From Hoylesella saccharolytica JCM 17484 (GTDB taxonomy: Bacteria > Bacteroidota > Bacteroidia > Bacteroidales > Bacteroidaceae): a stretch of DNA of 64,000 nucleotides. The position numbers and the translations under genes are program-made. The notes under the pieces are model-generated. The model was not told where the DNA came from. It saw nothing but the letters and a program-made list of their open reading frames with translations, and made no database searches. The DNA lies in NCBI RefSeq assembly GCF_000614205.1, contig NZ_BAKN01000001.1, positions 186,001 to 250,000 of the forward strand, given 5' to 3'. This document shows positions 4,541 through 53,913 of this stretch, in pieces. How positions within the stretch are numbered: position 1 is the stretch's first letter; each line of letters begins with the position of its first letter.

Positions 4541-4672
4541 GAAACCATAGTTTTGGGGTCGTAAAAGCTATGCTTTCTGCCTCCAAAACCTATGCTTTTG
4601 AGATGCAAAAGCTATTCTTTTGCAACCTTAAAGCATATCTTTTAGCATACGAATACTTGTTTTTGTCAAAAT
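4541..4672. repeat. 22-bp-pitch array of A4-N7-T4 palindromes, locus 1 (six units)
   Basis: Units start at 4541, 4563, 4585, 4607, 4629 and 4651, exactly 22 bp apart. Each is a 15-bp near-palindrome (for example AAAAGCTATGCTTTC, AAAACCTATGCTTTT) plus a 7-bp variable spacer; the last unit is degenerate. The array lies in the 850-bp gap between the SDR gene and the desulfidase-family gene. The rest of that gap holds the dispersed 84-bp repeat and a promoter. Confidence 0.85.
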
Positions 4673-11529: not shown

Positions 11530-11589
11530 AAAAGCATAGCTTTTGTGATGGAAAACTTGTGTTTTTACCACCCAAAAGCTATGCTTTTT
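11530..11589. repeat. 22-bp-pitch array of A4-N7-T4 palindromes, locus 2 (three units)
   Basis: Units start at 11530 (AAAAGCATAGCTTTT, a perfect 6-bp inverted repeat), 11552 (AAAACTTGTGTTTTT) and 11574 (AAAAGCTATGCTTTT, also perfect). The spacers are 7 bp. The array lies between the end of susF and the methyltransferase-like gene. Confidence 0.85.
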
Positions 11590-30298: not shown

Positions 30299-31101
30299 AC
30301 TTCTGTTTGCCTTTTAATTTGGGACGCAAAAGTAAGTAAAACTTCAGCTTATACCTTATTATATAGAATATTTTTTAGTTTTTTTATAGATTGGGGGTGT
30401 TTGTGTAGGGTGTAAGAGGTGTCTTTTGATAGTGCGATAGCGCAGAGTGATTATTTTTAGGAAAATGTAATTTCACTGTATGAGGTGCTTGCGCGTCGTT
30501 AACAAAAATCGTTCCGAAAGCGACAATGTATTTACATCTTTTCACGTGTAGAATTTTATGGTTTCATGCTTCGTCGTTTTTATGTCCAAATTTTTAAGCT
30601 AATCACTATTTTTGAGTTTTATCGTAAATCATTAATAGTTAAGTTTTTATGGTTTTGTATTATGCTTTTAAACTTTTGTTTTCTGATATTTTCGCTTGTG
30701 AAAACATGGGTTTTGGATGTTGAAAGCATAGGTTTCATTTTCTAAAAGCATAGCTTTTGCAACCTAAAACCTATGCTTTTAGTGTTTAAATGTCTCTCTT
30801 TTCGATATCCAATAAATAAGTATGGGTTATTAGGATCTATTTTGAGGGTTGCTAAAAGCTGAAAAGTAAGAATATTTAAGATAAAAATATAAAGATTAAT
30901 AGTTTGGAACGTGTATCTGAAAGTGTGGGTGTGAACTGATTTGTGGGTCGTTAAAACGAAATTTTGAGAAAGTGTATTTTCCTCTTTTTAAGTGATAAAA
31001 CGCTGATTTGTTACATTTTGATGGTTCTTTGATAGGTAAGCTGTGGTGTAGTTGTTTTGTTAATATTTCGTAAAATCTACTTTTCTTTCGCAGTGGGTTG
31101 G
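30299..31101. other. AT-rich gap between divergent topA and rplM
   Basis: This gap contains the topA -7 box (30327-30334) and a 22-bp-pitch palindrome array (30701-30803). The rest is AT-rich with no credible gene; the one minus-strand frame near 31 kb has no codon-use or family support. Confidence 0.6.
30701..30803. repeat. 22-bp-pitch array of A4-N7-T4 palindromes, locus 3 (four to five units)
   Basis: Units start at 30701 (AAAACATGGGTTTTG), 30722 (GAAAGCATAGGTTTC), 30744 (AAAAGCATAGCTTTT), 30766 (AAAACCTATGCTTTT) and a degenerate one at 30788. The pitch is 22 bp except 21 bp between the first two. Confidence 0.85.
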
Positions 31102-40556: not shown

Positions 40557-40638
40557 TGCGCCTGATAGGACTCGAACCTACACGTCGCGAAACACCAGAT
40601 CCTAAGTCTGGCGCGTCTACCAATTTCGCCACAGGCGC
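40557..40638 (-). tRNA. tRNA-Leu (anticodon UAG)
   Basis: The 82-nt tRNA has acceptor stem GCGCCTG/CAGGCGC with discriminator A, and D-arm GCG...CGC with TTGGTAGA. The anticodon arm is CCAGA-CTTAGGA-TCTGG, giving UAG. It has a long class II variable arm and a T-loop TTCGAGT. CCA is not encoded after the discriminator. It lies downstream of the S41 peptidase gene on the same strand with its own terminator. Confidence 0.95.
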
Positions 40639-51045: not shown

Positions 51046-51401
51046 ATACGGGTTGATGTAAAAATACAATCTGTTGCAAAGGTATAAAGTTTTTAAGTAC
51101 AGTCCAATATGCTTCCTCCTTTTGTTTATCGGTAGAGAGATTATGTATCTACATACCCCGTTTGGTCATTGGGGCTTTCTATTTTATCCCTATCTTATCC
51201 CACACCCTCTACTTACAAATTGTAAGTTGGAGGGTTGTCAAGAAATCGGAAGGTACTTCGCGAGAGTGTCAGTCGAAGTCACCAACTTATTATTAGCTGG
51301 CAAAATCGCAAGGATTTTACGATTACATATATCGTTAATAATGAGCAACTTGCATAAACCACATTAACTTTTCGTTCCTTTTCGCCCTCTTCAAACGCCC
51401 T
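51046..51401. other. Intergenic stretch with an unassigned hairpin
   Basis: CCCTC-ACTTAC and GTAAGT-GAGGG pair at 51205-51234. The hairpin has no T tract on either strand, so it is not an obvious terminator. The plus-strand frame at 51074-51367 has no family support. Nothing else is recognised. Confidence 0.45.
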
Positions 51402-51504
51402 AAAACCGTGTTTTTCGGACTGTAAAAGCATAGGTTTTACACGCTAAAAGATGATGTTTTGCATTCTAAAAGCTATGCTTTTGTAACTCAAAACCTATGT
51501 TTTG
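51402..51504. repeat. 22-bp-pitch array of A4-N7-T4 palindromes, locus 4 (five units)
   Basis: Units start at 51402 (AAAACCGTGTTTTTC), 51424 (AAAAGCATAGGTTTT), 51446 (AAAAGATGATGTTTT), 51468 (AAAAGCTATGCTTTT) and 51490 (AAAACCTATGTTTTG). The spacing is exactly 22 bp throughout. The array lies about 140 bp upstream of the glnN promoter. Confidence 0.88.
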
Positions 51505-51638
51505 GAAAAATCAATGCTGTTTTTTCGCTTTTTCATCCCTCATTTTTCTCTATATTGAAAAAGTGATTTGTAAAGAAAAGAGAAATCAGAAGATGTAATA
51601 AAAGGTTAAAAAAGTTACGATTTGTAAGCAAATAGTTG

Positions 51639-51724: not shown

Positions 51725-53913
51725 ATGGCAAACTTGAGATTTGAGGTTGTGGCAGAAGCATACAAAAAGAAACCGTTGGAAGTGATAACACCCGTTGAAC
51801 GCCCGTCGGAGTTTTTCGGAAAATACGTTTTCAACCGTGCTAAAATGTACAAATATCTGCCTGCCGACGTGTACGAAAAATTGATAGATGTTATCGATAA
51901 CGGCACGCGACTTGACCGCAATATTGCCGACGCCGTAGCTATGGGCATGAAAAAATGGGCCAACGAGAACGGTGTTACGCATTATACCCATTGGTTTCAG
52001 CCGCTTACCGAAGGTACGGCAGAGAAACATGATGCCTTTGTTGAGCCCGACGGAAAGGGTGGCATGATAGAAGAGTTTTCGGGAAAGCTGCTCGTGCAGC
52101 AAGAACCCGATGCGTCTTCGTTTCCCAGTGGCGGTATTCGCAACACCTTTGAAGCGCGCGGATATTCGGCTTGGGACCCCACATCGCCCGTCTTTATCAT
52201 TGACGACACACTTTGTATTCCTACCATCTTTATTTCGTACACAGGCGAATCGCTCGACTATAAGGCACCCTTGCTGCGCTCGTTGCAGGCCGTAAACAGT
52301 GCGGCAGCTGCTGTGGCACAGTATTTTGACCCACAGGTGAAGAAAGTTACGTGTAATTTGGGTTGGGAACAGGAGTATTTTTGGTAGACGAGAGTCTTTA
52401 TTTTGCCCGTCCCGATTTGATGTTGACGGGCCGAACGTTGATGGGACACGACTCGGCCAAAAATCAACAGATGGACGATCACTACTTCGGCACCATCCCC
52501 GAACGGGTTCAAGCGTTTATGAAAGACCTCGAAATTCAGGCGCTCGAACTGGGTATTCCCTGCAAAACACGTCATAACGAGGTGGCGCCCAACCAGTTTG
52601 AGCTGGCTCCTATCTTTGAAGAAACCAACCTTGCGGTAGATCATAATATGCTGTTGATGTCGCTGATGAAGAAGGTGGCACGTAAACACAGCTTCCGTGT
52701 GCTGCTTCACGAAAAGCCCTTTGCAGGCGTTAATGGCAGCGGAAAACACAATAACTGGAGCCTCTCTACCGATACGGGCGTACTGTTGCATGCGCCGGGT
52801 AAGACACAGGAAGAGAATTTGCGGTTTGTTGTCTTTATCGTTGAAACGCTGATGGGCGTATATCGGCACAATGGACTTCTAAAAGCGTCGATTATGAGTG
52901 CCACCAATGCCCACCGATTGGGTGGTAATGAGGCCCCGCCCGCTATCATCTCATCGTTCCTGGGCAAACAGTTGAGTAGTTTGCTCGAGCATATTGAGAA
53001 GGCTGATAAGGAAGAACTGTTTTCGATGGACGGCAAAAAGGGTATCGAACTGGACATTGCCCGTATACCGCAACTGCTTATCGACAACACCGATCGCAAC
53101 CGAACATCACCCTTTGCCTTTACCGGTAACCGCTTTGAATTTAGAGCGGTGGGGTCGGAAGCTAATTGCTCGTCGGCGCTTATCGTGCTGAACACGGCGG
53201 TGGCAGAGGCGCTTGTCGACTTTAAAACGCGTGTCGATGCGCTTATTTCTCAGGGAGAAGAGCCTACACACGCCATCATCGACATTCTGCGCGAGGATAT
53301 TAGAACGTGTAAACCCATTCAGTTTGAGGGTAATGGATACTCGGAAGAGTGGATGGAAGAGGCCCAACGACGGGGGCTGGATTGTGAAACAAGCTGTCCG
53401 CTGGTGTTCGATCGTTACTTAGACGAGGCCAGTGTACAGATGTTTGAAAGTCAGAATGTGATGCAACGCAATGAACTGGAGGCCCGAAACGAGGTGAAAT
53501 GGGAAACTTATACCAAGAAAGTGCAAATAGAAGCGCGCGTTTTGGGCGACATTTGTATGAACCACATTATTCCCGTTGCTACGCATTACCAGAGTAGGTT
53601 GGCTAAAAACGTACAGAGTATGTTCGACATATTCCCCAGAGAAAAGGCTACTTCGCTGACCTCGCGCAACGTGAAGATTATCGAAGAAATTGCCGAACGC
53701 ACGCAATTTATCGAAACAGAAGTAGAAGAATTGGTAAATGCGCGCAAGGTAGCGAACCGTATTGAGAACGAACGCGATAAGGCAATTGCTTATCACGACA
53801 CGATTGCGCCGAAATTGGAGACTATTCGTTATCAGGTGGATAAACTCGAACTGCTGGTTGCCGACGAACTTTGGACGCTGCCAAAATATCGTGAACTGCT
53901 GTTTATCCGATAA
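51725..53913 (+). CDS. glnN: Glutamine synthetase type III, one apparent frameshift
   Basis: This type III enzyme of about 729 residues condenses glutamate and ammonia with ATP. The N-terminal frame contains [20 protein letters not shown] and [20 protein letters not shown], ending LGWEQEYF. The second frame continues [30 protein letters not shown] and [20 protein letters not shown]. The break lies in a T run at 52378-52382: five T's are present and six restore EQEYFLVDES. An artefact is strongly suspected, as both halves are fully conserved. It is monocistronic with its own promoter and is the main ammonia-assimilation enzyme in many Bacteroidales. Confidence 0.94.

Follow-up and report, generated by a model that had tools for sequence, protein, structure and literature searches.

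Intergenic arrays of 15-bp pseudo-palindromes at a 22-bp pitch recur in many Prevotella chromosomes

What holds short palindromes at an exact distance from one another in the gaps between genes? The question is raised by four intergenic loci in a window of 64,000 nucleotides (C82:186001-250000) from the genome of Hoylesella saccharolytica JCM 17484 (G000; 2.98 Mb in 82 contigs). The original prediction named these loci and described a pitch of 22 bp in all but one interval. Re-scoring the sequence in an A4-N7-T4 frame, with each unit scored out of 8, recovers all four arrays, each with A4-N7-T4 units at 22 bp; the one exceptional interval precedes a weak sixth unit of array 1, which lies 20 bp on from the fifth. 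Array 1 (4541-4643) contains five units starting at 4541, 4563, 4585, 4607, and 4629, with the weak sixth at 4649, and its cores are, in order, CCATAGT, GCTATGC, CCTATGC, GCTATTC, and GCATATC. Array 2 (11530-11588) consists of three perfect units (starts 11530, 11552, and 11574; cores GCATAGC, CTTGTGT, and GCTATGC) and lies 29 bp 3′ of a minus-strand SusF/SusE-type gene. Array 3 (30700-30802) sits between the divergent genes topA (minus strand) and rplM/L13 (plus strand); its five units start at 30700, 30722, 30744, 30766, and 30788, and its cores include GCATAGG, GCATAGC, and CCTATGC. Array 4 (51402-51504, plus strand) has five units, starting at 51402, 51424, 51446, 51468, and 51490, in the stereotyped core order CCGTGTT, GCATAGG, GATGATG, GCTATGC, CCTATGT. 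Arrays 1 to 3, to which no strand is assigned, are freestanding, and an end-pattern search found no terminal repeats at them; array 4 is the center of a 417-bp element. The neighboring genes include those for serine dehydratase, a SusF/E-type protein, topA, L13, glutamine synthetase III, and others, and no common function is evident among the genes beside the four arrays. Glutamine synthetase III appears to be split between two frames (51725-52387, N-terminal domain; 52363-53913, C-terminal parts), by a frameshift or an assembly error.

A tolerant detector requiring at least three units found 117 arrays in 1.53 Mb, made up of eight contiguous segments of five genomes. The segments contain 2-25 arrays each, as compared to a mean of 0 to 0.05 per segment in dinucleotide-shuffled intergenic DNA (20 shuffles for each of the eight). 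Arrays are thus commoner than in shuffled intergenic DNA, the comparison on which the original prediction had staked itself, and a chance origin is excluded. No arrays were called at pitches of 16-20 or 24-30 bp in any of the eight segments. Pitches of 21 and 23 bp gave 36 calls, 35 of which are 22-bp arrays that the tolerant scoring reads one base off. Among 200 same-genus genomes, exact three-unit matches number 816 in 31 genomes at 22 bp (G000 included, with 127) versus 2 in a single genome at 23 bp, which bears out the proposed constraint on distance. In a set of 80 loci selected for similarity to topA (1.5 Mb), 22 bp is likewise the sole pitch with exact triples. Genome-wide, G000 contains 248 exact two-unit and 127 exact three-unit matches; because the pattern is its own reverse complement, the counts on both strands represent the same places. 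The four loci are not the whole set, as 31 arrays are present in the 450 kb of G000 examined. Genes predicted by a simple, purpose-made codon-usage caller overlap none of the 117 arrays in the eight segments and 1 of 42 arrays in separately fetched 3-kb loci (G006, L175). The arrays are not CRISPRs, as had been stated at the outset: in place of direct repeats separated by unique phage-derived spacers, they have 15-bp units that point either way and lie 7 bp apart.

Arrays of this kind, each ~100 bp long, number from tens to hundreds in many Prevotella chromosomes. Their presence is patchy. Exact three-unit matches range from 0 to 229 per genome across the 200 same-genus genomes and are absent from 169 of them; the arrays are therefore dispensable to the genus as a whole. 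Among genomes of the same family but outside the genus, 2 of 110 have one match each, which looks accidental, and 0 of 148 genomes in a class sample outside the genus (three of them from the same family) have a match. Among the 80 loci chosen by topA similarity, the tolerant detector finds 13 arrays in seven, including loci from Prevotella histicola, Xylanibacter rarus, and X. caecicola. Arrays with different cores lie ~230-400 bp upstream of topA, a gene concerned with supercoiling, in three lineages (30700 in the window, L039:9698, and L073:9694), a set that is ascertained, the loci having been chosen through topA similarity.

The unit is a pseudo-palindromic 15-bp site, A4-N7-T4, with a 7-bp core in either orientation, followed by 7 bp. 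Arrays in the eight segments contain three to seven units, with four to six in 109 of 117. Five is the dominant number in G000 (21 of 31 arrays) and four in G084 (53 of 60) and G017 (12 of 14); in G010, 9 of 10 arrays have four or five. With the exact 22-bp pitch, all sites share one helical face, and A- or T-tracts recur at 11-bp intervals. The tracts are in register at 11 bp, with a mean resultant of 0.94-0.97 per tract, and three segments have, respectively, 16 of 19, 17 of 17, and 8 of 10 of their arrays above the 99th percentile of the intergenic background for A-tract phasing at 10.5 bp per turn. On the basis of this phasing, the sequence predicts that the arrays are intrinsically curved.

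The core heptamers vary between species, while the 22-bp frame is kept. Core types are GCATAGC, CCTATGC, and CATCATC in G000; CCTACGC, CAGCCGC, and CAATAGG in G084 and G017; GATGACC, CATCATC, CATCACC, and GGTAACC in G010; GCAGCCC in G012; and GACGCCC and GGGCACC in P. histicola. Among the arrays listed for other genomes are CATATCC (G134), CAAGTTG (G185), GCGCCAA-type (G170), and GGTATGC (G196) cores. Many near-perfect palindromic cores (CAANTTG) are found in G185 and G199, and the spacers of G185 are very regular.

In five of six species without evident recent amplification, cores are better kept than spacers, as judged by mean between-array distance: 2.63 versus 3.84 in G010 (17 arrays), 1.67 versus 2.72 in G012 (6 arrays), 2.87 versus 3.40 in G006 (7 arrays), 1.31 versus 2.08 in P. 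histicola (3 arrays), and 2.00 versus 4.25 in G132 (2 arrays). The order is reversed in G027, where cores are less alike than spacers (4.37 versus 3.94). Conservation of core over spacer argues against pure copying, which would keep both equally. Moreover, the flanks of sampled arrays of G010, G012, G027, and G028 show no similarity and no common ends, and these arrays are therefore not recent copies of one longer repeat; G006, the other species of this group in the flank comparison, shows slight similarity at one pair of loci. Cores and spacers are about equally conserved in G000 (3.13/3.25), G084 (2.55/2.31), and G017 (2.08/2.26), where copies are alike throughout. The spacers, described in the original prediction as free, are so in G010, where 41 of 44 are distinct, as compared to 24 distinct cores among 63. 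They are not free in the stereotyped 103-bp copies, such as that at 51402, in which core order and spacers are both conserved.

One array shared by G084 and G017 at an orthologous position records how a core can change. Its unit 1 differs between the two genomes, GCGGCTC having become CCGTAGG, the exact complement of unit 2, with 0-2 changes per spacer. Replacement of a whole core is what might be expected if the arrays were a mutational by-product, with units made and homogenized without selection as replication slips, and switches template at hairpins, on A/T-tract repeats. The homogeneity of G006 cores within an array (0.97 within versus 2.87 between) fits such an origin. However, slippage would copy spacers along with cores, and the genus restriction, the narrow unit number, and the fixed 22 bp are left unexplained. 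We consider this origin very unlikely.

Flank alignment reveals that many G000 arrays form the center of a uniform 417-bp dispersed element with terminal inverted repeats. The copy around array 4 spans 51212-51628 (C82:237212-237628, plus strand). The element is bounded by 18-bp inverted repeats, CTTWCAAATTGTWASTTT, each at a set distance from the array. In this copy, the left repeat is CTTACAAATTGTAAGTTG (51212-51229; C82:237212-237229, plus strand), and the right repeat is CTTACAAATCGTAACTTT on the minus strand (51611-51628; C82:237611-237628), each with one mismatch to the pattern. Among the 88 ends listed genome-wide with at most one mismatch, 27 pairs span 416-418 bp, and two further pairs span 438-439 bp, corresponding to about one extra 22-bp unit. 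Of the 27 pairs, 19 were inspected, and all of these enclose an array (13 in the 450 kb read and 6 by listed array positions). With a looser end pattern, all 34 ends in the 450 kb adjoin arrays. A fragment of the left arm (51241-51351; C82:237241-237351, minus strand), which is open-frame-like and common to many copies, has 53 matches in G000 at E ≤ 1e-3 and 59 at E ≤ 10. A coding function for this arm was considered and rejected. Several of the 59 matches contain stops, and the longest open frame is 75 aa, so the arm is taken as non-coding; none of the matches lies in a long open frame. The right end of the 417-bp elements is often flanked by a GGTGAAAAGGTGAAA-type stretch. Further dispersed repeats of ~100-330 bp occur in both orientations in many array-bearing G000 gaps, for example at C82:9140-9520. 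Two arrays, at C81:149908 and C81:150369 (L128), share one gap and are surrounded by a 402-bp perfect inverted match, part of which may be the same DNA read twice, as the two 500-bp flanks overlap.

Because many arrays in G000 are the center of this element, they favor long gaps. In the 450 kb, 28 of 40 gaps of at least 700 bp hold an array, including all 17 divergent ones, versus 2 of 301 shorter gaps. An apparent centering of arrays within G000 gaps, striking at first, was set aside, as it becomes weaker when a margin is applied (p = 0.026 at 200 bp and 0.088 at 220 bp) and is partly a consequence of the 417-bp element. In G084, flank similarity reveals repeats of ~200 bp or more centered on arrays. 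The arrays thus behave as a repeat family in both genomes.

The main rival to a role for the array in the host is a selfish, non-autonomous dispersed repeat, MITE- or BIME-like, in which the array is the recognition array of a mobilizing enzyme or a passenger, performs no host service, and has cores that reflect lineage-specific amplification. High and erratic copy number, the large shared flanks in G000 and G084, the numerous left-arm matches, and the paired inverted-repeat ends of the 417-bp element all point in this direction. Terminal inverted repeats, uniform length, and many copies, the features of a MITE, are combined in the G000 element only. However, no end pair 440 bp to 6 kb apart is found among the 88 ends listed, and hence no autonomous partner is seen; a trans-acting enzyme with other ends could possibly serve the element. 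The unlike flanks and ends in G010, G012, G027, and G028 and the separate constraint on cores also run counter to a selfish repeat. So does the scarcity of arrays in mobile DNA: the viral_contigs collection yielded one array-bearing contig, a 4.2-kb IMG/VR sequence (L280:1158-1260), and the plasmid and phage collections, for which the 417-bp element was the sole query, yielded no match. Four exact units occur on no other contig among those returned from the viral collection; the L280 array mixes GGTGACC-type and GCATAGG-type cores.

Comparison of conserved gaps bears on the same question. Between G084 and G017, 16 conserved gaps have an array in neither genome, one has an array in both, and one in G084 only. 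In this last gap, G017 keeps the last part of the array and its flank (~85 bp, 79%), a sequence that is more like a truncation than a clean empty site. Other conserved gaps with an array in neither genome number 18 for G000-G084, 14 for G084-G010, and 3 for G084-G132, in sampled stretches with few shared gene pairs.

REP/BIME families comprise hundreds of intergenic palindromic units that occur in either orientation and are species-specific. The arrays resemble them in each of these respects but differ in the rigid 22-bp pitch of their 15-bp units and in that no RAYT was found in the array-richest genomes. The Y1 transposase domain (Y1_Tnp, PF01797) is present in 6 of 18 array-rich versus 11 of 18 array-free genomes, some of the array-rich drafts being 66-81% complete, and has 0 matches in G000, G084, and G017. 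RAYT-driven REP mobilization is therefore not supported. With this evidence on both sides, we regard the selfish repeat as possible but on the doubtful side.

A further alternative is an RNA element, in which transcribed arrays would form hairpins that act as bidirectional terminators or 3′ UTR stabilizers. Strong folding is predicted for one array each from G084 and G132 (z of −5.3 to −6.4) and for three window arrays (−2.5 to −5.3). In contrast, one G012 array shows no excess (−1.25/+0.43), and one G006 array, whose units all point one way, shows little (−1.17/−2.39). Hairpin folding is thus not universal among the seven arrays folded. Of the two readings first offered, a DNA-protein array fits better than a chain of hairpins, because the frame is intact in the G006 and G012 arrays even though they fold little or no more than expected. 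Gene orientation around arrays varies between species. In G084, 24 of 59 array-bearing gaps are convergent versus 45 of 247 gaps of at least 50 bp, an excess that would suit terminators, whereas in G000, 17 of 30 array-bearing gaps are divergent (versus 35 of 225 gaps of at least 50 bp) and 2 of 30 are convergent. No Rfam family matches the window arrays; the Rfam matches elsewhere in the window are an FopS sRNA (RF04319, 9769-9836), an L13-Bacteroidia leader (RF03127, 31147-31221), and a tRNA (40557-40638).

The change of unit 1 to the exact complement of unit 2 in the orthologous array is likewise what an RNA hairpin would favor. Complementarity was scored in arrays anchored on unit 4. In G084 (57 of 60 arrays anchored), unit 1 is complementary to unit 2 or 3, with at most one mismatch, in 51, as compared to a shuffled mean of 39.8; units 2 and 3 belong to unlike core types in 55 of 57, where shuffling leaves on average ~25 alike. 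This difference between units 2 and 3 could be explained by two founder copies. In G017 (13 of 14 anchored), unit 1 is complementary in 12 versus 11.5 when shuffled, which is no excess, and units 2 and 3 are alike (at most one mismatch) in 4 of 13. Hairpin covariation in G084 was set aside on these grounds, and an RNA element is in our estimate unlikely.

No named element of this layout was known to the original prediction, but a relative exists. PINSR is a 188-bp intergenic repeat found 177 times in one P. intermedia strain and 184 times in another; its report places it 3′ of P. intermedia tnaA and at or between some rearrangement sites, gives its function as unknown, and describes it as lacking terminal inverted repeats and as confined to one clade (Naito 2015, PMC4755523). 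G084 (two contigs of 1,965,935 and 708,235 bp, 2.67 Mb), which we infer to be a P. intermedia-like genome, carries an array (L131:1031-1111) 279 bp 3′ of a tnaA-like gene. From this position and the ~200-bp repeat, rather than from a comparison of consensus letters, we infer that PINSR is very probably the 22-bp array as it occurs in P. intermedia. Both are intergenic, numerous, and located 3′ of tnaA, given the identity presumed for G084, whereas 22-bp units do not figure in the accessible description of PINSR. The array layout is also wider than the PINSR clade, occurring with other cores in P. histicola and Xylanibacter rarus. The 417-bp element of the window has 18-bp terminal inverted repeats, whereas PINSR is described, in the same accessible part, as having none; the element is therefore not PINSR and is a relative only through the array. 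The PINSR report (PMC4755523) was the only relevant one on Prevotella among the papers listed, most subscription journals lying outside the search, and the accessible part of PMC5771137 contains nothing on such arrays. The array architecture and its range are thus not described in the literature found, although they are related to one published repeat. Dispersed repeats are usually recognized through shared letters, whereas the trait conserved here is geometry. Surveys by sequence similarity or PCR, such as the PCR survey of PINSR, would consequently miss arrays outside one clade.

The distance is fixed, the frame palindromic, the core specific to the species, and the spacer freer; no array in the eight segments overlaps a predicted gene, the gene neighborhood varies, and the seven arrays folded have no universal RNA fold. 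Together, these traits are what would be expected of a multi-site platform for a candidate oligomeric DNA-wrapping protein, a platform that has spread as a repeat family. This is the reading we prefer, tentatively and at slightly under an even chance. A dimeric DNA-binding protein would read each palindrome through the major groove in the core and the narrow minor groove at the A/T tracts. On the pre-curved DNA, dimers would then stack or close into a ring, and the putative complex would bend or wrap ~80-125 bp. Its role might be architectural, marking the chromosome, and not that of an operator for one regulon, because the neighbors share no obvious function and gene orientation differs between species. 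Against the platform, hundreds of sites switching core together between species would be hard for an ordinary regulator. The earlier interpretation thus anticipated the distance constraint, the exclusion of CRISPR, and the DNA-protein array; the repeat family, core turnover, 11-bp tracts, and PINSR were unforeseen.

Known proteins provide partial parallels to the proposed platform. The accessible part of one report describes phage phi29 p6 as binding through the minor groove with a dimer every 24 bp (a monomer every 12), p6 of GA-1 with a monomer every 11 bp, and DNA as wrapped on a protein scaffold in the p6 complex (PMC10899789). This spacing resembles, in geometry only, the 11-bp recurrence of A/T tracts and the 22-bp pitch of the units; p6 itself is a phage genome-coating protein. 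Octamers of Lrp/AsnC proteins (LrpC, Sa-Lrp) and RemA bend or wrap DNA at AT-rich or repetitive targets, with a foreshortening of 115-156 bp for Sa-Lrp, and no comparable array of sites appears in the accessible parts of their descriptions (PMC3584215, PMC8481266). Lrp as the binder was set aside on co-occurrence: Lrp/AsnC is present in 35 of 36 genomes, array-rich and array-free alike, and its presence therefore explains nothing.

Array-bearing gaps are spaced more evenly along the chromosome than random gaps (seven segments, combined p = 1.9e-6; null mean coefficient of variation, CV, 0.82-0.93), G132 being left out for having too few arrays. The CV is 0.42 (p = 0.00005) in G000 C82, 0.45 (p = 0.010) in G000 C81, 0.52, 0.80, and 0.76 (p = 0.023, 0.24, and 0.17) in three G084 segments, 0.51 (p = 0.019) in G017, and 0.61 (p = 0.16) in G010. 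The first four segments are significant and the three replication segments individually are not (p = 0.24, 0.17, and 0.16); because G084 and G017 are close relatives, the segments are not fully independent. Arrays follow one another at mean intervals of 6.6-17.5 kb in G000, G084, and G017, as compared to 34 kb in G010. Evenness could also be explained by selection against deletions between nearby copies. A more speculative extension, which we think improbable, is that in array-rich genomes the arrays are evenly spaced (~7-17 kb apart) anchoring or wrapping sites for a putative nucleoid protein that would set supercoiling domains and steer rearrangements, its core specificity turning over as the 22-bp frame is kept. 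Such turnover can be likened to the co-evolution of centromere sequences with their binding proteins. If a protein does read the frame, Prevotella would offer a naturally occurring set of variants of a single nucleoprotein architecture, differing in their many core specificities, as well as a handle on chromosome organization and on why gene order breaks where it does. In the single stretch aligned, 140 kb of G017, arrays coincide with synteny breakpoints. Nine of 14 G084-G017 synteny-block ends are within 400 bp of a G084 array, as compared to 2.7 expected from random G084 gap edges (p = 0.0004); on the G017 side, 5 of 14 ends are within 400 bp of an array.
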